A DNA stretch of 33,507 nt from Kiritimatiellia bacterium (GTDB lineage Bacteria > Verrucomicrobiota > Kiritimatiellia > RFP12 > UBA1067), in the NCBI GenBank assembly GCA_028700415.1, contig JAQVSS010000004.1:1-33507 (forward strand), in the 5' to 3' direction. The position numbers and the translations under genes are program-made. Below the pieces are notes generated by a model that did not search any database, was not told the DNA's origin, and saw only the letters and a list, made by a program, of their open reading frames with translations. Below, piece by piece: positions 4,598-33,498 of this stretch (within the stretch, counting starts at the first letter, position 1; every line of letters starts with the position of its first letter).

Positions 4598-6056
4598 AAG
4601 GTTGAACGGGATGTTTGTGAAACAGGCGGGGCTCATCGCGGCATGCGTGCTGGGCGTTTGCGTGACGGGCGCGGCGAAAGAAAGCGCCCCGGGCGCGCTC
4701 CGCGCGGGCGCGGCGAAAGGGAACATCACGCCTGCGCTGGGCGCAAGCATGTACAGCGGGTTCCTGCCCTTCCCGTCCAAACACGTGCACGACGACCTCT
4801 GGGCGCGGTGTCTGGTGCTGGACGACGGCAAGACGCGCGTGGCTTTTGTCGTGTGCGACGTTCTGGACGTGATGTGGCAGGTGAGCGAGGTGGCGCGGCA
4901 GCGGATCGAGCAGGAGACCGGTTTGCCGGCGGGGCACGTGCTCATCTCCGCGACGCACACCCACACGTCGCACGACGTGGTGGGCGACCGTTTCGTCGTC
5001 ACGCCGGAGCTGAACAAGGTTCAGGAGGTTCTGGTGCGCCGCATCGCCGACACGGTGCGTTGCGCGATCAACAACCTTGAGCCGGCCCGCATCGGCTGGG
5101 GCACCGCGACCGAGCCGCGCCATGTTTTCAACCGCCGCTGGTATCTGAAGCCCGGCACCGTGCCGGCAACACCCTTCGGCGGCACGAACGATCAGGTCAA
5201 GATGAATCCGGGGCTGCTCAACCCGAACCTGGTCAAGCCGGCCGGGCCGACCGATCCGGAGGTCGGTGTGATCGCCGTGCAGACGGCTGGCGGACGGCCG
5301 CTCGCCCTTTTCGCGAATTACGCCTTGCACTATGTGGGAGGCAATCCCGCCTCGGACATCTCGGCCGACTATTACGGGATGTTCAACGACCGCATCCAAC
5401 AGCTGCTGGGCGCGGACCGGCAGGATCCGCCCTTCGTGTCCCTCATGAGCAACGGCGCGAGCGGCGACATCAACAACATCGACGTCACGAAGCCCGCCGC
5501 AAAGCTGCCGGCCTACGCGAAGATGAAGATTGTTGCGGACGACGTGGCGCAGAAAGCCTGCGCGGTCTACCAGACGATCCGGTGGCGCGACCGCGTTCCT
5601 CTCGGCGTGTCATTCGGGAAGATCGATCTCCCTTACCGGCGCCCGACGCCGGAACAGCTCGCGTGGGCCAAGGGCATTCTCGCTTCGCTCGCGCCCGGCA
5701 AGAAACCGGAAACGTGGTCGGGCATCTACGCCGAACGCCTTTTGCGGATGGACGCCATGCCGGCACGCTGGGGTTTCCCGCTGCAGGCTTTCCGCGTCGG
5801 CGACGTCGGCATCGCGACGTTTCCGAACGACACCTTTTGCGAGGTCGGGCTGGAGCTGAAGCGCCGCAGCCCGTTCAAACCGACGTTTGTCGTGTCGCAT
5901 GCGCACGGCTATTTCGGCTATCTGCCGACCGTGGAGCACCACGCGCTCGGCGGTTACGAGACCTGGCCCGGCTCCAGCCGGCTGGAACCCGATGCCGCCC
6001 CTCAAATGATCGACCGCCTGCTGTCCATGCTCAACCGTCTCCAGAAAGGCGAGTGA
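4584..6056 (+). CDS. Secreted neutral/alkaline ceramidase-like protein
   Basis: This 490-residue exported protein has an N-terminal signal (KQAGLIAACVLGVCVTGAA) and the fold signature of the neutral/alkaline non-lysosomal ceramidase N-terminal domain. That signature includes GAAKGNITPALG, the VLDDGKTRVAFVVCDVLDV strand-loop, the metal-binding ISATHTHTSHD segment and an NGASGDINNID motif. True neutral ceramidases have GDVSPN with the nucleophilic Ser. Here the aligned residue appears to be Asn297, and no C-terminal domain of the long ceramidases is present. It is probably a zinc hydrolase of this superfamily acting on another amide or ester, possibly cooperating with the esterase upstream. The ATG at 4584 is preceded by AGGTGG and overlaps the upstream stop, so the two genes are co-translated. 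Confidence 0.82.
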   Translation: MRTTKRLNGMFVKQAGLIAACVLGVCVTGAAKESAPGALRAGAAKGNITPALGASMYSGFLPFPSKHVHDDLWARCLVLDDGKTRVAFVVCDVLDVMWQVSEVARQRIEQETGLPAGHVLISATHTHTSHDVVGDRFVVTPELNKVQEVLVRRIADTVRCAINNLEPARIGWGTATEPRHVFNRRWYLKPGTVPATPFGGTNDQVKMNPGLLNPNLVKPAGPTDPEVGVIAVQTAGGRPLALFANYALHYVGGNPASDISADYYGMFNDRIQQLLGADRQDPPFVSLMSNGASGDINNIDVTKPAAKLPAYAKMKIVADDVAQKACAVYQTIRWRDRVPLGVSFGKIDLPYRRPTPEQLAWAKGILASLAPGKKPETWSGIYAERLLRMDAMPARWGFPLQAFRVGDVGIATFPNDTFCEVGLELKRRSPFKPTFVVSHAHGYFGYLPTVEHHALGGYETWPGSSRLEPDAAPQMIDRLLSMLNRLQKGE

Positions 6057-25832: not shown

Positions 25833-28800
25833 CTACACATCCTCGGGCCGGTTGCGCGCGATACCCAGACATGTCTCGATGATCGCGTCCATCTGCTCAA
25901 GCGTCAGGTCGACCTTGCGTTCCTGCCTAAGCTGAAAAAGATAGTCGTCCATCGCGTTGCGCATCCGGTTCTGCACGTCCGGATTCTCGCGCCACCGGAC
26001 AATCGCCTCGTCGCGGATGATCGCCTCCAGCCGCAGGCTCATCTCGGCGCGCAGACGGTCGGCCTCTGACACACGCGGCGACTCCTTCCCGTAGCCGACC
26101 GGCTCTTCATTCACCGTCCACCCTTCCGCCGGCGTCACGCGCTCGCTGACCACGCCGTAGAGCGCCTGCGCAAAATCGCGTCCCTCCAGTTCTGGCGGCA
26201 CGTCGGACTTTCTGCGATCTCGGACGCGTTCCATGATCTCACGAACTCGGGCCAGATACTGCGCCTCGGTGATGCGCTGCCGCCGGTACTCGTCGATGGC
26301 CTGCTCCAACAGCAGCGAAAACTTCCGGTAGAAGAAGGGGTCTTCGTCCATCCGCTCGGTGATCGTGCGCTTGGTCCGGTTGACGATCGTGTCCGCCTTG
26401 GCCCGCGGGGTCTTCGCCCGCTCGACCTCTTTCTCGAAGGCCTCGCGCTCGAAGATGTTCACCGGCTCGACGACCTGAATGACCTCCTCCGCGCGCACGT
26501 AGGTCGCCAGCATCTTCTGGATCTGCCGCTCGTAATCGCGGTAGTCGATCTCTTCCGCGTAGCGGATCTTCACCGCCGCCCGCAGGTTCTGGAAGAAGAC
26601 CGCGTCGCGCTTGTACCTCTCGGTCGTCTCCTGCGGCGTGGCGTCCGCCCACCGGATGCACGCCAGCGCCATCTTGAGTACGCGGCAGAACTTCGAGAAA
26701 CGCGCATAGAATTCGTCGCGCCGCACCGGATCGGCCAGCGCCAGCTCGAAGGCCTCCTCGTCCCGCTTGTTAGGCACGTCACGGAACAGATCCCACAGCC
26801 CGTCGCGCAGGCCCGGCAGCGACTTGATCTCCTCGGCGAGGTTCGCGAGCATTCCTTCCAGGTCCGCGGAATCGAACTTGCCCTCCAGAGAGCTGTAGAG
26901 TTCCAGCGCGTCGTGAAGCTGCGTGACCACCCCGTAGTAGTCGACGACGTATCCGAAGTCCTTTCCAGGCGAGAGCCGGTTCACGCGCGCCACCGCCTGC
27001 AGCAGCGCGTGCTCCTTCAGGCTCCGCGCGATGTAGAGCACCACGTTGCGCGGCGCATCGAACCCGGTCAGCAACTTGTCCACCACGATGAGCAGGTCGG
27101 GCGCATCGGTTTTCTTGAAGGCCGCGACGACCTGACGGTTGTACGCTTTCTCGTTGCCATATTTGTCCATCATCGTTTTCCAGAACGTCTCGACGCGCGC
27201 GTCGGGCGCCACCGACGCGCTCTCCTCGCCCTCAATCTCCTGCGGCGCGGAAATGATCACCTCGCTCGTCACCTTTCCGAACTGGTCGAGGAAGCCCTTC
27301 AGCATCAGCGCTTCTTTCTTGCCCGACGCGGTGACCTGTCCCTTGAAACCCGTGCCCTTCCACTGCTCCGCGAAGTGCTGCGAGATGTCCCAGGCGATCA
27401 GGTACAGGCGGCTCTCCAAACGGTTCAGCTCGTCGCGCGAGGCGAACTTGCGCTTGAGGTCGCCCTTCTGTTCGGGCGTCAGCCCCCGACACATCGCCTC
27501 GAACATCGAGTCGACGGCCTTCTCGTTCACCGCCTGCAAGACGTGCCGCCCCTCGTAGAGCAGCGGCACCACGGCTTGGTCCGCCACTGCATCGCGGATC
27601 GTGTACGCGGGCTCGATGAAGCCGCCGAACTTGAGCGCCGTGTTCTTCTCCGCCTTCATTAACGGCGTGCCGGTGAAGCCGATAAAACAGGCGTTCGGCA
27701 GCGTCTTCCGCATGCGCAGATTCGCTTCGCCGTACTGGCTCCGGTGGCTCTCGTCCACCAGCACGAAGAGGTTGTCGTCGGTGTTCTGATATCCCGATGA
27801 CGCATGGGCCGCCGCACGGAACTTGTCGATCACGGTGGTGATCACCGCCACCCGTCCGTCGCGCAACAGCTCGTGCAGGTGCTTGCCCGTGCGTGCCATC
27901 TGCGGTTCCTTGCCGCAAAGGTGGAAGGTCTTCCAAATCTGCTCGTCCAAGTCGATCCGGTCCGTGACGATCACGATGCGCGGATTGAGGATCTCACGGT
28001 CCATCGCCAGCGCCTTGGCCAGCAGCACCATCACCAGCGACTTGCCCGAGCCCTGCGTCTGCCAGATTACACCGCCCTTGCGCCGCCCCTCGGGATCGCG
28101 CTGCCGCACCCGCTCCAGCGTCTTGCGGATCGCAAAGTACTGCTGGTAGCGCGCGATCTTCTTGACCGTGCCGCCCTCGTCGTAAAGCACGAACTGGTGC
28201 ACCAACTCCAGGAGGCGCTCCGGACGGCACAGCGACCAGACGAGCCGGTCCTGCCCAGTCGGCTCGCGCTCCTGCACCGCCAACTCCTCGAACGCCTGCT
28301 TGGCGTAGGCGAACACGCCCCGGAAAAGCTTCTCGTGCTCTTCCAGACGCACGGGACCGTTGACTGCGGCCCGCACCTCGGCGTCCGCGTCGCGCATCTC
28401 GCGCCATTGAGCCCAGAACTTCTGAGGTGAGCCCGCCGTAGCGTAGCGGCCCTCGTTCTTGTTCAGCGCCAACACGAGCTGCGCGTAGAGGAAGAGCTGC
28501 GGAATCTCGTCGTTCTTCCAGTTGCGGATGTTCTGGTTCACCGCCTGTTCGAGCGAATGCTTCTCCTCCGGCCGTTTGCACTCGATCACCACGAAAGGAA
28601 TGCCGTTCACGAAGCAAACGATATCCGGACGGCGCGTCTCGCGGCTCGCGGTGCGCTCGACCTCGAACTCCGCCGTCACATGGAAAACGTTGTTACGCGG
28701 ATTCTCCCAGTCGATGTAGCGCAGGGTAAACCCCTTGGTCTCACCCAGCACGGTCTGGTCGAGGCTCTTGCCCAGTGTGAGCAGATCGTAGACCTTCTCG

Positions 28801-29075
28801 CTCGTGCGCACTAGGCCGTCGAACGGGATCTCCCGCAGCGCCTCCACCGCCTTCGCGATGTTTTCGTCGGAGAACGCCGCCTCCTGGCCTTTGAACGAAA
28901 TCGTGTTCAGCCGCCGGAGCTGCCGCGCCAGCACATCCTCCAGCAGCACCGACCGCCGCTTCGCCCGCCGCTCGGCATAGACCTCCTCGGGACTCAGGTA
29001 CGCGTACCCAAGCTGCTGCAGCAGCCGGATCGCCGGCAACTGGCTGATGTGCGCCTCTTGGAAGCTAGGTGTCAT
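25833..29075 (-). CDS. hsdR: Type I restriction enzyme, HsdR subunit
   Basis: This 1080-residue subunit does ATP-dependent DNA translocation and cleavage in the HsdR2M2S complex. The N-terminal nuclease domain has the PD-ExK set: Asp151 in RRPDIV and Glu165-Cys-Lys167 (IECK). The SF2 motor has Walker A GSGKS at 342-346, DESH at 441-444, VDKLLTGFDAP and QAVARVNR. The C-terminal helical part, including ITERMDEDPFFYRKFS, should contact HsdM. The ATG at 29075 gives the normal MTPSFQEAHISQ-type start and overlaps the stop of the upstream gene (ATGA); the longer open frame to 29414 runs through repeat DNA. The cassette appears intact. Subfamily is uncertain; HsdM and HsdR sizes suggest type IC-like. 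Confidence 0.96.
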   Translation of the reverse strand: MTPSFQEAHISQLPAIRLLQQLGYAYLSPEEVYAERRAKRRSVLLEDVLARQLRRLNTISFKGQEAAFSDENIAKAVEALREIPFDGLVRTSEKVYDLLTLGKSLDQTVLGETKGFTLRYIDWENPRNNVFHVTAEFEVERTASRETRRPDIVCFVNGIPFVVIECKRPEEKHSLEQAVNQNIRNWKNDEIPQLFLYAQLVLALNKNEGRYATAGSPQKFWAQWREMRDADAEVRAAVNGPVRLEEHEKLFRGVFAYAKQAFEELAVQEREPTGQDRLVWSLCRPERLLELVHQFVLYDEGGTVKKIARYQQYFAIRKTLERVRQRDPEGRRKGGVIWQTQGSGKSLVMVLLAKALAMDREILNPRIVIVTDRIDLDEQIWKTFHLCGKEPQMARTGKHLHELLRDGRVAVITTVIDKFRAAAHASSGYQNTDDNLFVLVDESHRSQYGEANLRMRKTLPNACFIGFTGTPLMKAEKNTALKFGGFIEPAYTIRDAVADQAVVPLLYEGRHVLQAVNEKAVDSMFEAMCRGLTPEQKGDLKRKFASRDELNRLESRLYLIAWDISQHFAEQWKGTGFKGQVTASGKKEALMLKGFLDQFGKVTSEVIISAPQEIEGEESASVAPDARVETFWKTMMDKYGNEKAYNRQVVAAFKKTDAPDLLIVVDKLLTGFDAPRNVVLYIARSLKEHALLQAVARVNRLSPGKDFGYVVDYYGVVTQLHDALELYSSLEGKFDSADLEGMLANLAEEIKSLPGLRDGLWDLFRDVPNKRDEEAFELALADPVRRDEFYARFSKFCRVLKMALACIRWADATPQETTERYKRDAVFFQNLRAAVKIRYAEEIDYRDYERQIQKMLATYVRAEEVIQVVEPVNIFEREAFEKEVERAKTPRAKADTIVNRTKRTITERMDEDPFFYRKFSLLLEQAIDEYRRQRITEAQYLARVREIMERVRDRRKSDVPPELEGRDFAQALYGVVSERVTPAEGWTVNEEPVGYGKESPRVSEADRLRAEMSLRLEAIIRDEAIVRWRENPDVQNRMRNAMDDYLFQLRQERKVDLTLEQMDAIIETCLGIARNRPEDV

Positions 29076-29713
29076 CTCCACGTCCTTCTCTGTCCGTGTC
29101 CGTCCGTGTTTGTCCGTGTCTGTCCGTGTGTCCGTGTCTCTCCCTCTCGCTCCCTCGCCTCCCGCCTGAGCCGATACATCCGCTCCGTGATCCCGCCCTC
29201 TTCGAGGAAACTCTTCTCCAGCGAGGCCAGTTGCTTGCGAGTCAAGTGCAGCGCGAGGTTCAGCAGCGTCAGCGTCCCGTTCGCCGCGATCTGATCCGGC
29301 GGCAATGTCTTGCCCGACGCCGTCCACACGTCCTTGGTCCACCCGCGGAACGCCTCCAGCGACTTCACATGCCGCGCCTTCAGATCTGCCAGCGCTGGGT
29401 ACTCCGGCGGCCACTCCTCCAGCTTCTTGCGCTTCAGGTACTTCACATAGTCCTTGGCCAGCTCGTCCATGCAGCCGATCGCGATACCGGTCAGCTTGAT
29501 CTCGCTCTTTTTGGAGACGCCCGAGTCGACCGAACCCTCGGCGATGTTCTGAAAACCCGACCGGCCCGACTGGACCATCTGGTCGTTTGTGCGGTCAGAG
29601 ACCGGCACGAACTTTTCGCAGAAGAGGACGGTGATGTCGAAGATCAGTTCCGCGAGCTGATACGTGAGCAGGTTCTTGTAGCCGCCGTGCTTCGGCAGAA
29701 GGTTCTCGCTCAT
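29072..29713 (-). CDS. Four-helix-bundle suffix domain protein inside hsd operon
   Basis: This 213-residue protein has an N-terminal helical region resembling bacterial four-helix-bundle (S23/IVP-like) proteins, with DRTNDQMVQSGRSGFQNIAEG at residues 40-60. A longer C-terminal helical part follows (YVKYLKRKKLEEWPPEYPALADL, LTRKQLASLEKSFLEEGGITERM). It fits the family called four helix bundle suffix domain. Function is not established; related bundles bind nucleic acid or assemble as pentamers. Residues about 191-213 are encoded by a 10-base repeat array and are rich in Thr, Arg, Gly and His. The ATG at 29713 follows GAGGAGAG. The stop overlaps the hsdR start, so HsdR translation is probably coupled to it. 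Confidence 0.75.
   Translation of the reverse strand: MSENLLPKHGGYKNLLTYQLAELIFDITVLFCEKFVPVSDRTNDQMVQSGRSGFQNIAEGSVDSGVSKKSEIKLTGIAIGCMDELAKDYVKYLKRKKLEEWPPEYPALADLKARHVKSLEAFRGWTKDVWTASGKTLPPDQIAANGTLTLLNLALHLTRKQLASLEKSFLEEGGITERMYRLRREAREREGETRTHGQTRTNTDGHGQRRTWR
29081..29140. repeat. 10-bp tandem repeat array A (GTCC-phased), inside 3' end of helix-bundle gene
   Basis: GTCC recurs at 29082, 29092, 29102, 29112 and 29122, exactly every 10 bases, then at 29130. The unit is close to TGTCCGTGTY. The array codes for the C-terminal tail of the helix-bundle protein and ends 6 bases from the hsdR start codon. Confidence 0.85.
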
Positions 29714-29733
29714 GTCTCTCTCCTCTCTCCTCC

Positions 29734-29822
29734 ACACGGACAATCAAGGACTAACACAGACCTTCACGGACACCCGTCCTTGTCTGTCCTTGTTTGTCTT
29801 TGTTTGTCCTTGTGTCCGTGTT
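29734..29822. repeat. Inverted pair of 10-bp repeat arrays (array B) at the hsdS 3' end
   Basis: The left arm has GGAC, GGAC, AGAC, GGAC at 29738, 29748, 29758 and 29768. The right arm has GTCC, GTCC, GTCT, GTCC at 29776, 29786, 29796 and 29806, then GTCC at 29814. The outermost ends ACACGGACA (29734-29742) and TGTCCGTGT (29813-29821) are exact complements. The right arm encodes the HsdS tail; the left arm runs over the hsdS stop toward the next gene. Confidence 0.82.
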
Positions 29823-31001
29823 CTCCACCCGTGTCTCCCCCGTCAACAGTCTCTGCATCAGCCCCCGCTTCTGCCTCTCGACTGCCGTGCGCGTGGCGCG
29901 GAGCAGGCGCAACTCCTCGTCGCCGGTGTCGAGAATGTCGGCGATGGCGCGCTGCTCTGGAAGTGCAGGGAGATTCACGGGAAGTGCAAGAAACTCAGGA
30001 GGATTCACTCGCCTTGCTTTGCGTCCACCAGCGGCAGCACCCAACTGGCGCGTATAGAATTCAGGCCGCACCACGTATGCAAGCAACCACCGACCATCGC
30101 ATTTCTTTGCAACGTCAAAAGCAGGCAGGTCTTGAGTGCTTTCAAATCCCTCCAAAGAGGGTGGTACAATGCCGAAGGCCCCATTCAAAAAGTCTAACTT
30201 GCTGTAAATGAACTGTCCCGTGTGCCTGACGAAATACTTGGTATTCTCAGACCCGCTCATGCGTTCTTGTTTAGCATAAACACCCTTGCCATACAACTTC
30301 ACTGTAATCTTCTGTGCAAACAGGCCATGACTTCCCGGATTTCGTGATTCCTGCAAGAGATTTCCAAATGTTGTTCGCTCCCATTTTCCAGTAAACCCCT
30401 TCACCCGCCTCTTGCCCGTCAGCAACTGCTGCATGAGCCCCTTCTTGCGGAGCTCTTTGGCGGCGATCAGCGCGTCGAGTTTCTCCAGCGCCTCGTCCCA
30501 TGCGCCCAGAATCTCCGCGATCTTGCGCTGCTCGGGGAGCGGGGGGAGTATGACATCCAGTTTACAAAATTGCTCTCGTGTCAGATGCGCAATACTGGAC
30601 TGCGTTGTTAGGTCACTTACTCGTTTTGAGCCCGATATATAAGACATGTAGGCGAACATGAATTCTGTAACGATCTCATCAGTTGTCGGGCGCAGGCGAT
30701 GAAGCGTCTTCTGAAAGAAACAAGGAGATATCTCCTCTCTCCAGATCGCGCACCGGCCGACCTCGCCACCTTCGCAAACAACCAAGTCCCCTTTCTTGAG
30801 TGTAAATTTGGATTTGTCTCGCTCTGAAAAGTGCATCTCATTCAGCTTTGAAAGATCAAATCGGCCCCATTGTACATTGCAGTTCGTCAAGTATGGCTGT
30901 TGTTCTCCCGTGGTTCTTGCGGTCTCGTTCAGCATTTTTCCAAGCTGAACATCAAATAGACATCCGACTTTACCGATTTTCCATCCCTTCGGCAGTTTCA
31001 T
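29751..31001 (-). CDS. hsdS: Type I restriction-modification specificity subunit HsdS
   Basis: This 416-residue subunit sets the bipartite DNA target of the HsdMS methylase and HsdRMS nuclease. It has two target-recognition domains (about 1-150 and 205-345), each followed by a conserved helical region: PPLPEQRKIAEIL at 153-165 with KKGLMQQLLTG, and PALPEQRAIADIL with KRGLMQRLLTG. Both halves are present, so it is full length. The last 24 or so residues after LLTGETRV are low-complexity (Asn, Thr, Asp, Lys, Gln) and encoded by the repeat array, not part of the normal fold. GGAGGTG precedes ATG 31001. Base composition of the recognition domains is visibly more AT-rich than flanking genes, as expected for exchanged HsdS domains. 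Confidence 0.95.
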   Translation of the reverse strand: MKLPKGWKIGKVGCLFDVQLGKMLNETARTTGEQQPYLTNCNVQWGRFDLSKLNEMHFSERDKSKFTLKKGDLVVCEGGEVGRCAIWREEISPCFFQKTLHRLRPTTDEIVTEFMFAYMSYISGSKRVSDLTTQSSIAHLTREQFCKLDVILPPLPEQRKIAEILGAWDEALEKLDALIAAKELRKKGLMQQLLTGKRRVKGFTGKWERTTFGNLLQESRNPGSHGLFAQKITVKLYGKGVYAKQERMSGSENTKYFVRHTGQFIYSKLDFLNGAFGIVPPSLEGFESTQDLPAFDVAKKCDGRWLLAYVVRPEFYTRQLGAAAGGRKARRVNPPEFLALPVNLPALPEQRAIADILDTGDEELRLLRATRTAVERQKRGLMQRLLTGETRVENTDTRTNKDKQGQTRTGVREGLC

Positions 31002-31027
31002 ACGCGCACCTCCGAAGGGCATTCCAA

Positions 31028-31047
31028 CCCCGTCGAATTCGACGGGG
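31028..31047. promoter_or_regulatory. Perfect 20-bp palindrome upstream of hsdS
   Basis: CCCCGTCGAA (31028-31037) is followed at once by its exact reverse complement TTCGACGGGG (31038-31047). It lies 27 bases upstream of the hsdS ATG, between hsdS and the KilA-N gene stop. No T-run follows, so it looks more like an operator for a dimeric protein than a terminator. Confidence 0.65.
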
Positions 31048-31094: not shown

Positions 31095-31940
31095 TCACGC
31101 ATTTTCAGTCCTTTTCTTTTCATCCAGCATCTTCGCCGTGTCCCGTGCCGTCAGGGACTGCAATTGCCGGATAGCGATCTGGTTCAGCCGGACCAAGCGG
31201 TCAGATTGGGGGACGCCCATGCGGATGAACTCGGCGTTCATGCCCTCGATGTTGGCCAGCACCAGCAGTTGCTCGATAGCCGCGTAATCGCGCATGTTGC
31301 CTTCCATCGACGGGTTGGCATCCCGCCACTGTTTGGCGGTCTGGCCGAAGAGCGCGACATTCAGCACGTCGGCTTCACTCGCGTACGTCATGCTGATCTG
31401 TTCGGGTGTCAGCGCGGCCGGAATCAAATGATCTTTAATCGCGTCCGTATGGATGCGGTAGTTTAGCTTGGCCAGCGTCCGGTTGAGATTCCAGGCCAGC
31501 GACAAGCGCCGGTTCTCGTCTTCCTTGAGACGCTGAAACTCCTTGATCAGGAACAACTTAAACTCGACGGAAATCCACGAGGCAAACTCGAAGGCAATGT
31601 CGGGGTGGGCATACGTTCCACCATATCGGCCCGGCGTTGACTTGATCCCCACGGCGTTCGTTTTTTCAACCCATTCTTTTACGCTAATCTTATAGCTGTT
31701 CAGGCCGGCTTGACTTCTAATTATGGCGAATTCGCCATAATTAAAAGACGGATTGAAAATAGACTCCCAGACGCCCAGAAACTCGACTGTATTCCTGTTC
31801 CGAAGCCAATCTGAGATGAAAAACTCTCCATCTTTCGCACGGATCATATCGGTCAGAGAGATGTAATCACCGTTCTTTCCGGAGATGATAGAGACCGCCG
31901 TCCCTTTCACATGAACCGACATGAGCTTGTCTTTCTTCAT
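31095..31940 (-). CDS. KilA-N domain protein between hsdM and hsdS
   Basis: This 281-residue protein has an N-terminal KilA-N domain (about 12-136): the GKNGDYISLTDMI start, ISDWLRNRNTVEFLGVWE, then RYGGTYAHPDIAFEFASWIS and KLFLIKEFQRLKEDE. KilA-N is a DNA-binding domain first seen in phages and large DNA viruses. The C-terminal half is helical (RTLAKLNYRIHTDAIKDHLIP, EADVLNVALFGQTAKQWRD, YAAIEQLLVLANIEGMNAEFI), a segment common in bacterial KilA-N proteins. It is embedded in the R-M operon 67 bases after hsdM, suggesting a regulatory or accessory defence role, but this is inferred. ATG 31940 follows AAGGA; the TTG two codons upstream is an alternative. Composition is AT-richer than hsdM. Confidence 0.88.
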   Translation of the reverse strand: MKKDKLMSVHVKGTAVSIISGKNGDYISLTDMIRAKDGEFFISDWLRNRNTVEFLGVWESIFNPSFNYGEFAIIRSQAGLNSYKISVKEWVEKTNAVGIKSTPGRYGGTYAHPDIAFEFASWISVEFKLFLIKEFQRLKEDENRRLSLAWNLNRTLAKLNYRIHTDAIKDHLIPAALTPEQISMTYASEADVLNVALFGQTAKQWRDANPSMEGNMRDYAAIEQLLVLANIEGMNAEFIRMGVPQSDRLVRLNQIAIRQLQSLTARDTAKMLDEKKRTENA

Positions 31941-31945
31941 GGCCA

Positions 31946-31992
31946 ATCCTTGTTCGTTTTCGTGTCTGTCCGGGCCGGTCCGTGTTAGTCCT
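31946..31992. repeat. 10-bp repeat array C at hsdM-KilA-N junction
   Basis: GTCC occurs at 31968, 31978 and 31988, again exactly 10 bases apart, with degenerate flanking units (ATCC at 31946). It fills the 67-base gap between the hsdM stop and the KilA-N start and belongs to the same family as arrays A and B. Confidence 0.65.
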
Positions 31993-32007
31993 TGTGCTGA
32001 GCGTTTT

Positions 32008-33498
32008 TCATAGCCTCAGCTCCTTGAGATATCCGTCCATCTTGGCGCGGACAGTGGCGAGCTGTCGCTCCAGCCCGTCGATCTCCTTCTTGACGGCCTT
32101 GAGGTCGATCTCGGCCTCCTCCTCGAAGGTGTCGACGTAGCGCGGGATGTTGAGGTTGTACGCGTTGTCGGCCAGTTCCTGCGCCGTGGCGCGGTAGGCG
32201 TACTTATCGACGGTCTGGAAGGCGCGGTAGGTCCGGACGATCGTGTCGACGTGCGCGTCGGTCAGCACGTTCTGGTTCTTGGCGCTCTCGAACGCGCGGG
32301 AGGCGTCGATGAAGAGCACGTCGCCGTGGGCCTTGCCCTTGTTGAAGAGCAGGATCGCCGCCGGGATGCCGGTGCCGAAGAAAAGGTTGGCGGGCAGGCC
32401 GATGACCGCCTCCAGCAGATTCTCCTCGATGAGCCGCTGGCGGATCCTGCCCTCGGCACCGCCGCGGAAGAGCACGCCGTGCGGCACCACCACGCCCACG
32501 CGGCCCGTGCCTTCGCGGGCGATCTCGATCATGTGGGAGATGAAGGCGTAGTCGCCCTTGGACTTGGGCGGCAGGCCACGGTGGTAGCGGTGGAAGGGGT
32601 CGGCCTCGGCCTCCTCGACGCCCCATTTTTCCAGCGAGAAGGGCGGATTGGCGACCACGATGTCGAACTTCATGAGCTGGTCGTGCTCGACCAGGCGCGG
32701 GTGGCGCAAGGTGTCGCCCCACTCGATGCGGAAGCTGTCCATGCCGTGCAGAAACATGTTCATCCGGCACAGGGCGTGGGTCGTGCCGTTGCTCTCCTGA
32801 CCGAAGAGCGCGAAGTCGCGCTTGTCGGCCTGCCGCCCCACCTTGATCAGCAGTGAGCCGGAGCCGCAGGCGGGGTCGCAAATCGTATCGCCTTTCTTCG
32901 GCGCGAGCAGGCGGGCCAGCAGCGTCGAGACCTGACCCGGCGTATAGAACTCGCCCGCCTTCTTGCCAGCGTCCGAGGCGAAGCGCTCCAAGAGATACTC
33001 GTAGACGTTGCCGATCACGTCCTCGTCGCCGACCGCCGAGGGCCGCAGGTCGAGGCGCTCGTCGTTGAAGTCCTCGAGCAAGTGCTTGAGACGGGCGTTG
33101 CGCTCCTTGGTCTGCCCCAGCTTGTTCTCAGAGTTGAAGCTGACCTCGCGGAAGACGCCTTCCAGCTTTTCTTTGTTTGCCTCCTCGATCTCGCCGAGCG
33201 CCACATCGATCCGCTCGCCGATGTCCGGCTGCGTGCGGTAGGCGTAGAGGCTGGCGAAATCGCACCCCTCGGGAAGCTGGAAGCGCTCGCGCGACAGGCG
33301 GCGGTTCACCCGTAGCACGTCTCCCCGGTACTCCTTCATGTACTGGTCGCGGTGGTCGCTCCACACGTCCGAGATGTACTTTAGGAAAAGCATCACAAGG
33401 ACATAGTTCTTGTAGTCGGCCGGATCGAGCACGCCCCGGAAGGTGTCGCACGCCCGCCACGCCACATCGTTGATCTTATTCTGGTCAATCGTCTTCAT
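32008..33498 (-). CDS. hsdM: Type I restriction-modification methyltransferase HsdM
   Basis: This 496-residue N6-adenine methyltransferase subunit has an N-terminal helical domain (WRACDTFRGVLDPADYKNYVLVMLFLKYISD). The catalytic domain carries the FYTPGQV segment, motif I DPACGSGSL at 208-216 for S-adenosylmethionine and motif IV NPPF at 284-287. The C-terminal helices (ELADNAYNLNIPRYVDTFEEE and a coiled coil) contact HsdS. Length is normal for the type IC-like group. The ATG at 33498 is 9 bases from the window edge, so its promoter lies outside. It is the first of six co-directional genes here. Confidence 0.96.
   Translation of the reverse strand: MKTIDQNKINDVAWRACDTFRGVLDPADYKNYVLVMLFLKYISDVWSDHRDQYMKEYRGDVLRVNRRLSRERFQLPEGCDFASLYAYRTQPDIGERIDVALGEIEEANKEKLEGVFREVSFNSENKLGQTKERNARLKHLLEDFNDERLDLRPSAVGDEDVIGNVYEYLLERFASDAGKKAGEFYTPGQVSTLLARLLAPKKGDTICDPACGSGSLLIKVGRQADKRDFALFGQESNGTTHALCRMNMFLHGMDSFRIEWGDTLRHPRLVEHDQLMKFDIVVANPPFSLEKWGVEEAEADPFHRYHRGLPPKSKGDYAFISHMIEIAREGTGRVGVVVPHGVLFRGGAEGRIRQRLIEENLLEAVIGLPANLFFGTGIPAAILLFNKGKAHGDVLFIDASRAFESAKNQNVLTDAHVDTIVRTYRAFQTVDKYAYRATAQELADNAYNLNIPRYVDTFEEEAEIDLKAVKKEIDGLERQLATVRAKMDGYLKELRL

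Follow-up and report, generated by a model that had tools for sequence, protein, structure and literature searches.

A 20-base palindrome between a KilA-N gene and hsdS, in a type I restriction-modification cluster of a Kiritimatiellia bacterium, belongs to a modular family of palindromic sites that is tied to one protein family and is also present in phages. The window analyzed here is the whole stretch of 33,507 nucleotides at positions 1 to 33,507 of contig JAQVSS010000004.1 (assembly GCA_028700415.1), and it carries two members of this family: the intergenic palindrome and a 26-bp palindrome inside the KilA-N gene. By analogy with the phage-defense protein BstA and its DNA element aba, we tentatively read the palindromes as double-stranded DNA recognition sites of the KilA-N proteins, the in-gene copy acting as a self-immunity tag. 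We favor this reading over the others considered below, though we would stop slightly short of calling it probable.

The sequence at 31028-31047, CCCCGTCGAATTCGACGGGG, is identical to its own reverse complement. The gap that separates KilA-N (stop codon 31095-31097) from hsdS is 93 bases long; the palindrome lies in it and begins 27 positions upstream of the hsdS ATG (31001-30999), which was taken as the start because it has the best ribosome-site support (GGAGG). A perfect 20-base palindrome is expected 0.03 times in a window of this size (4^-10 x 33,507), or about once in 30 windows. The palindrome, its distance to hsdS and this chance expectation were all given in a preliminary description of the window, and each of them holds. 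With up to 3 mismatches allowed, CCCCGTCGAATTCGACGGGG occurs only once in the window (shuffled mean 0.01); the rest of the genome has no exact copy and one place with 3 mismatches (C523:54438). In the window plus 199,926 bases of the same genome, just two perfect palindromes of at least 20 bp were found, this one and the 26-bp palindrome in the KilA-N gene. The latter is the longest in the window and was absent from the preliminary description. Both share the core CGAATTCG, and their half-site types differ: TTATGG in the gene and CCCCGT between the genes. The outer arms of the intergenic copy have TT on the right (GGGGTT) and GG on the left, where AA is expected. CCCCGT is also the left half of the in-gene sites in L137-L139, and the near type TCCCGT is found in KilA-N genes adjoining hsdM and hsdS (L136) or hsdS (L033).

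KilA-N relatives were gathered from bacterial genomes, plasmids, named phages and viral contigs. The site has the general form TTTTAA-N6-CGAATTCG-N6'-TTAAAA and is found in nearly all KilA-N genes of the class that matches PADLOC candidate PDC-S22, where it lies in frame at the helix codons of the helix-turn-helix, at about codons 66-75. Its center falls on the same two codons, Glu-Phe (GAA/TTC), also in phages and plasmids, and the encoded peptides include NYGEFAII, NPVEFDGI, KLVEFDQF, NSPEFGGI and KPLEFEGF. A table of 102 sites, drawn from bacterial genomes, plasmids, named phages and DNA matches in 387 genomes of the phylum, contains 56 perfect palindromes with lengths of 18 to 44 bp; the remainder are mostly one or two changes away. 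There are 40 left-arm types among 161 distinct genes. In 71 of these 161 genes the palindrome is perfect over 24 bp, and 13 types are represented among them.

The two arms change together. Across the six variable pairs of 89 distinct 32-mers, 462 of 534 cells were Watson-Crick, compared to a mean of 207 and a maximum of 241 in 1000 shuffles; for 56 distinct cores the count was 276 of 336 (shuffle mean 125, standard deviation 10). Shifting one arm by 1 to 3 bases abolished the signal at the variable positions, and complementarity ended beyond 16 bases from the center on either side. Pairs that touch a third codon position were complementary in 710 of 800 cases, compared to 323 (maximum 364) in 200 synonymous redraws. 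Second-base pairs, which are hardly altered by synonymous codons, were also in excess at positions 5 and 8 (74/80 and 66/80, with shuffle means of 38 and 21). Therefore, the amino acids on both sides change jointly, as reverse-complement codons, and arm complementarity is not accounted for by protein constraint or codon choice.

Genome-wide scans show how closely the site follows KilA-N genes. The loose pattern TAA-N6-CGAATTCG-N6-TTA (14 defined bases) was found at 73 places in 47 of the 387 genomes, and a reversed control pattern was found in 6 of the 387. Inner pairs were complementary in 6 of 6 positions at 43 of the 73 places, 5 of 6 at 18, 4 of 6 at 10, and 2 of 6 and 0 of 6 once each. 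In the 25 loci retrieved, 23 of 28 sites lie inside KilA-N genes, 4 lie beside one, and the last is elsewhere and non-palindromic. The 94 relatives gave 14 matches, 13 of them in KilA-N genes and one in a KilA-N leader, 65 bases ahead of the gene. In IMG/VR, 118 stretches matched TTTAA-N6-CGAATTCG-N6-TTAAA, compared to 2 when the core was replaced with GCAATTGC. A lone 20-bp palindrome at one in 30 windows could pass for an accident, and the in-gene palindrome could be imagined as a by-product of protein constraint. However, given the shuffle and synonymous-codon controls together with these scans, we consider such an origin scarcely credible.

An extra copy lies within 400 bp of the gene in only about 9 loci (121 sites scanned, plus G037, a genome of the same family but a different genus). 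Leader copies are found 20 to 140 bases ahead of the KilA-N start in L036, L048, L075, L105, L139, L140 and L201, and the copies in the window and G037 are just downstream; other near-palindromes within 400 bases mostly lack the core CGAATTCG. The L036 leader holds a tandem row of several types, and in L048 a truncated KilA-N gene stops at its palindrome, with two further palindromes before an intact gene. Such arrangements would suit a recombination site or mobile palindromic element that moves among KilA-N genes, leaders and phages and whose arms are maintained by template switching; the 12-8-12 layout also has what we take to be a resemblance to tyrosine-recombinase core sites. We regard this as improbable, because the matches in the 94 relatives are confined to KilA-N genes and the one leader, and because copying of arms alone would not yield the two-type hybrids described below. 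In addition, the window's own genome has one copy per type and no further copies, so the site is not a dispersed repeat of the repetitive extragenic palindromic (REP) or Rickettsia palindromic element (RPE) kind. Rickettsia palindromic elements and the coding palindromes of Nematomorpha mitochondria are reportedly cases of palindromic DNA inside open reading frames. Many genes carry those, as dispersed repeats or as long inverted repeats, whereas the KilA-N site occupies a single fixed place in one gene family and has covarying arms.

Sites are also present in viral DNA that lacks the gene. Of the 118 stretches, 80 viral loci were examined: 33 sites are inside KilA-N genes, and 47 are in stretches without a KilA-N gene. 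Of the 47 gene-less sites, 34 have four or more complementary inner pairs out of 6 (expectation 1.5 of 6). Most of the 38 that were inspected fall in short or out-of-frame open frames, i.e. they are mostly intergenic. The gene half-site catalogue comprises 45 types, or 1.1% of 6-mers, and yet both halves are catalogued in 15 of the 47 sites and one half in a further 22. Many are hybrids that join left and right halves belonging to different gene types, and tandem rows occur in L310, L318, L345 and L349. Named-phage examples come from query-driven blastn with a 32-bp query and are therefore biased by that query. They include a site between capsid genes in Streptococcus phage Javan117, a site between integrase and recombinase in Lactobacillus phage LR1, and sites in Staphylococcus phages SP197 and Pel11. 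Matches in Acinetobacter were not counted; they are 24 bp long, with E 0.3, and fall within a hypothetical gene.

In Streptococcus phages a variable hairpin with a T-run marks a module border about 95 bases before the capsid scaffold gene (L440-L475). At this locus identity is 30-50% upstream of the site and 84-98% downstream, and the hairpins run into TTTTCTTT. Type switching between related Streptococcus phages was considered as support and dropped, since the upstream DNA is exchanged along with the site and the hairpins are possible terminators.

The palindrome before hsdS could also act as RNA, as a leader or terminator hairpin in the KilA-N or hsdS transcript. The comparison with G037 is relevant here. 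In that genome the KilA-N tail has 89% identity in residues 235-281; next come AACCCCATCGAATTCGATGGGGTT and an hsdS start context like that of the window. The G037 palindrome at the equivalent spot is 24 bp and differs from that of the window in one pair altered on both sides, G-C to A-T. Where its outer pairs are A-U, the hsdS-sense strand of the window has G.U; the fold of the window leader beats shuffles (z -3.1), and by eye G.U outnumbers A.C on the sense strand of leader copies. However, non-standard pairs at positions 1-13 of the 89 in-gene 32-mers comprise 30 G.U and 35 A.C on the sense strand, which shows no transcript bias, and the phage hybrids would not pair. Despite the compensatory change between the window and G037, these two observations led us to reject an RNA hairpin as a general explanation, and we consider a hairpin function very unlikely. 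No terminator was called at the window site, which has no T-run (the hsdS-sense strand continues TTGGAATGCC), and the only Rfam match was a chance one with E 9.8. Because hybrids of two types cannot make a full hairpin, we favor half-sites in double-stranded DNA.

It should also be noted that the hsdS start context ATGCCCTTCGGAGGTGCGCGTATGAAACTGCCG (window 30999-31022; L121 297-320) is the same in the window and G037. Past this shared start the two hsdS genes diverge, as though a target-recognition domain had been swapped.

The KilA-N protein of the window matches the PADLOC profile PDC-S22 with an E-value of 1.1e-129 (residues 5-279, profile positions 3-278 of 281), and two other proteins also match this profile near full length. 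The Pfam KilA-N domain covers residues 20-142 (E 1e-22). In an AlphaFold2 model (mean predicted local distance difference test, pLDDT, 72; about 81-94 in the N-domain), the palindrome-coded residues 66-75 fall at a helix of residues 68-77, ahead of the next helix and a wing. The predicted fold of residues 2-145 resembles 1bm8 (Mbp1; Z 6.5, root-mean-square deviation (rmsd) 2.8 A, 84 residues aligned) and 4ux5 (Z 6.3); with Z under 8, these values speak for a common arrangement and do not prove function. The N-domain model is similar to Mbp1, PCG2 and Bqt4, and the whole chain to DdrC (Z 8.0, but with an rmsd of 14). The N-domain is thus predicted to be like that of the fungal APSES/KilA-N factors Mbp1 and PCG2, and the winged helix-turn-helix DNA-binding fold in the model makes binding to the palindrome plausible. 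The CGAA core is presumably akin to the SCB-type core of Mbp1/PCG2-type factors, and we know of no fungal APSES/KilA-N factor with a binding site in coding sequence. The C-terminal halves of the KilA-N proteins of L136, L072 and the window are near-identical, and their N-terminal DNA-binding domains vary with palindrome type in the manner of a modular swap.

The preliminary description had proposed that the palindrome is the KilA-N protein's own operator, controlling hsdS and downstream genes. The link to KilA-N biology stands, with 23 of 28 sites inside KilA-N genes and 4 beside one, and DNA binding is plausible from the predicted fold. In its general form, a dimeric KilA-N repressor or activator would control its own gene and hsdS onward, with the in-gene copy as a downstream operator. 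The extra copies before KilA-N starts in seven loci and just before hsdS in the window and G037 are placed as this would require, and the window protein carries the PHROG label "transcriptional regulator". However, the wording "own operator controlling hsdS" is not supported, as the intergenic type CCCCGT is not the gene's TTATGG and as sites also occur in phages without KilA-N, at places with neither an hsd nor a KilA-N gene nearby. Nor does an operator account well for an in-gene copy about 68 codons into the gene, for extra copies limited to about 9 of the loci scanned and of types unlike the gene's own, or for phage sites scattered between capsid genes and after integrase, and we consider it unlikely. 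Conservation of the palindrome, which had been suggested as a check, gave a divided answer: it is kept ahead of hsdS in G037, but a DNA search of the 387 genomes with the palindrome region returned short matches that are mostly within KilA-N genes, not ahead of hsdS.

The closest precedent is BstA, a prophage protein with a KilA-N-like domain that prevents phages from replicating and is itself switched off by a cognate DNA element, aba, of which each variant has its own (PMC8585504). In the same study aba is described as 63 bp long, of which 29 bp precede the bstA start and 34 bp follow within the gene (PMC8585504). As far as these aba features go, the likeness consists of a short stretch of DNA at the locus of the gene itself, a cognate element specific to each variant, and action as DNA (PMC8585504). 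The window protein also has a KilA-N-like N-terminal domain, by its Pfam match, and the satellite phages L196 and L199 have a KilA-N gene between repressor and integrase, much as bstA is described beside cI. Unlike aba, the element here is palindromic and sits about 68 codons into the gene, with modular half-sites, copies in gene-less phages, and a leader copy in some loci only. Membership in the BstA family was rejected, given the lack of detectable homology and the different position and architecture.

The self-tag reading is preferred because of the BstA/aba precedent and because phages retain sites. Under this reading, each site would consist of two half-sites, (TTTT)AA-N6-CGAA, that meet at CGAATTCG, and the six variable bases would define its type. 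Every gene would hold one site of its own type in the coding frame, marking the DNA that bears the gene as self. The KilA-N protein would interfere with incoming or replicating DNA unless a recognized site is present, in analogy to BstA and aba. Additional sites of a different type, for example the hsdS-proximal one or those in phage arrays, would give immunity to other protein variants. In the window, the TTATGG site would be the cluster's own tag and the CCCCGT site the tag of another variant. That the KilA-N protein binds the sites, has anti-phage activity and is held in check by them for immunity is what we infer; the anti-phage assignment is a PADLOC candidate label.

Several observations weigh against this reading. 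BstA homology was not detected: comparison of the window protein's family (A1) with BTP1 BstA by hhalign gave a probability of 0.5% over 21 columns, a Pfam search with BstA at E 1 gave no match, and this palindrome is absent from the BTP1 aba locus. None of the 47 whole viral records with gene-less sites was matched by the KilA-N profile, and these records are possibly fragments and the search had no positive control. At the Streptococcus scaffold gene, terminators at the border of a module may explain the sites better. In 10 pairs less than 500 bp apart, the extra chromosomal copy is always of a different type than the in-gene copy, and chance predicts the same (sum of squared type frequencies 0.06). 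The stronger statement that no extra copy shares the type of its gene was dropped as evidence, as L036 and L048 show degenerate own-type copies by eye. The correlation of residues outside the palindrome with type, highest at 36-47, 83-89, 101 and 106, is confounded by shared descent. Finally, the self-tag role itself is argued from sequence and by analogy.

The same sites may be part of a lock-and-key system, in which a defense gene would encode, within its helix-turn-helix, a hypervariable palindromic password that its protein recognizes, and in which phages and mobile or restriction loci would collect other types, singly, as hybrids or in tandem rows, the hsdS palindrome included, to pass the defenses of other hosts. 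The diversity of types, at least 40 by left arm, would then be open-ended, and modular at the level of the half-site. We consider this fuller scheme possible, and less secure than the self-tag role. The opposite relationship can also be imagined, with phage copies as targets that the KilA-N protein of a satellite, plasmid or host attacks or senses, and with the in-gene copy limiting its own expression or copy number. KilA-N genes adjoin integrase and repressor genes in satellites L196 and L199, and the ACTGGT type is common to Streptococcus satellites and Streptococcus phages, as a target would be. However, single changes should suffice for a phage to lose a target, and phages keep palindromes, tandem arrays and two-type hybrids, which makes this relationship quite unlikely.

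A description of the element was not found in the open-licence PubMed Central literature, including that on KilA-N, BstA and PDC-S22, and titles and abstracts of papers on KilA-N and palindromes gave nothing on it. Six site sequences had no verbatim occurrence in open-licence PubMed Central papers; GGCGAATTCGCC does occur in PMC5944118, where it is a CRISPR (clustered regularly interspaced short palindromic repeats) repeat. PDC-S22 is a candidate-family label, and a passage of a paper that names it gives co-occurrence with other systems only and no palindrome. Coding sequence with arms that change jointly across phyla, phages and plasmids is very unusual and needs a mechanism. If the palindromes are self-immunity tags, they would constitute a readable infection code, in which the in-gene type of a host is set against the types that phages carry, and PDC-S22 would go from an unlabelled candidate to a system with a directly testable specificity code. 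With 32-bp synthetic sites, the way in which aba-like DNA silences an anti-phage protein would also become approachable.

Features of the window that bear on the palindromes are listed below.

Table 1. Positions of the two palindromes and of the restriction-modification genes around them in the window
Feature	Position	Strand	Remarks
hsdM	32008..33498	-	N6_Mtase E 1e-104; upstream neighbor of the KilA-N gene
KilA-N gene	31095..31946	-	Pfam KilA-N E 1e-22; PADLOC PDC-S22 E 1e-129; start ATG 31940 or TTG 31946
In-gene palindrome TAATTATGGCGAATTCGCCATAATTA	31718..31743	-	26 bp, perfect, in frame; type TTATGG; encodes NYGEFAII; homologous codons palindromic in other KilA-N genes
Intergenic palindrome	31028..31047	.	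Two CCCCGT-CGAA half-sites; sequence CCCCGTCGAATTCGACGGGG
GGAGG ribosome-site-like sequence	31009..31013	-	7 bases ahead of hsdS ATG 31001; context kept in G037
hsdS, type I specificity subunit	29751..31001	-	Methylase_S E 8e-23
Four-helix-bundle protein gene, between hsdS and hsdR	29072..29743	-	TIGR04258 E 9e-17
hsdR	25833..29075	-	SWI2_SNF2, HSDR_N

The cluster is read in the order hsdM, KilA-N, hsdS, four-helix-bundle gene and hsdR, all on the minus strand. Degenerate repeats rich in GTCC/GTGT are found at 29085-29150, 29740-29830 and 31950-32005, at each hsd junction but that of KilA-N and hsdS; the preliminary description had singled out this junction as the only one without GTCC repeats, in agreement with the sequence. 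Just past the window, immediately upstream of hsdM, its first 40 residues recur at 98% identity (G000:C523:33606-33725). A second, broken KilA-N relative lies at a contig end of the same genome (G000:C437:2-579; L122/L128/L131). Long perfect palindromes were also seen elsewhere. The Aureispira plasmid pAUEb carries two of another family, of 44 bp and 32 bp, between a replication gene and parA (L194:4121-4164 and 4624-4655), and a Flavobacteriia contig carries one of 58 bp (L081:11850-11907).
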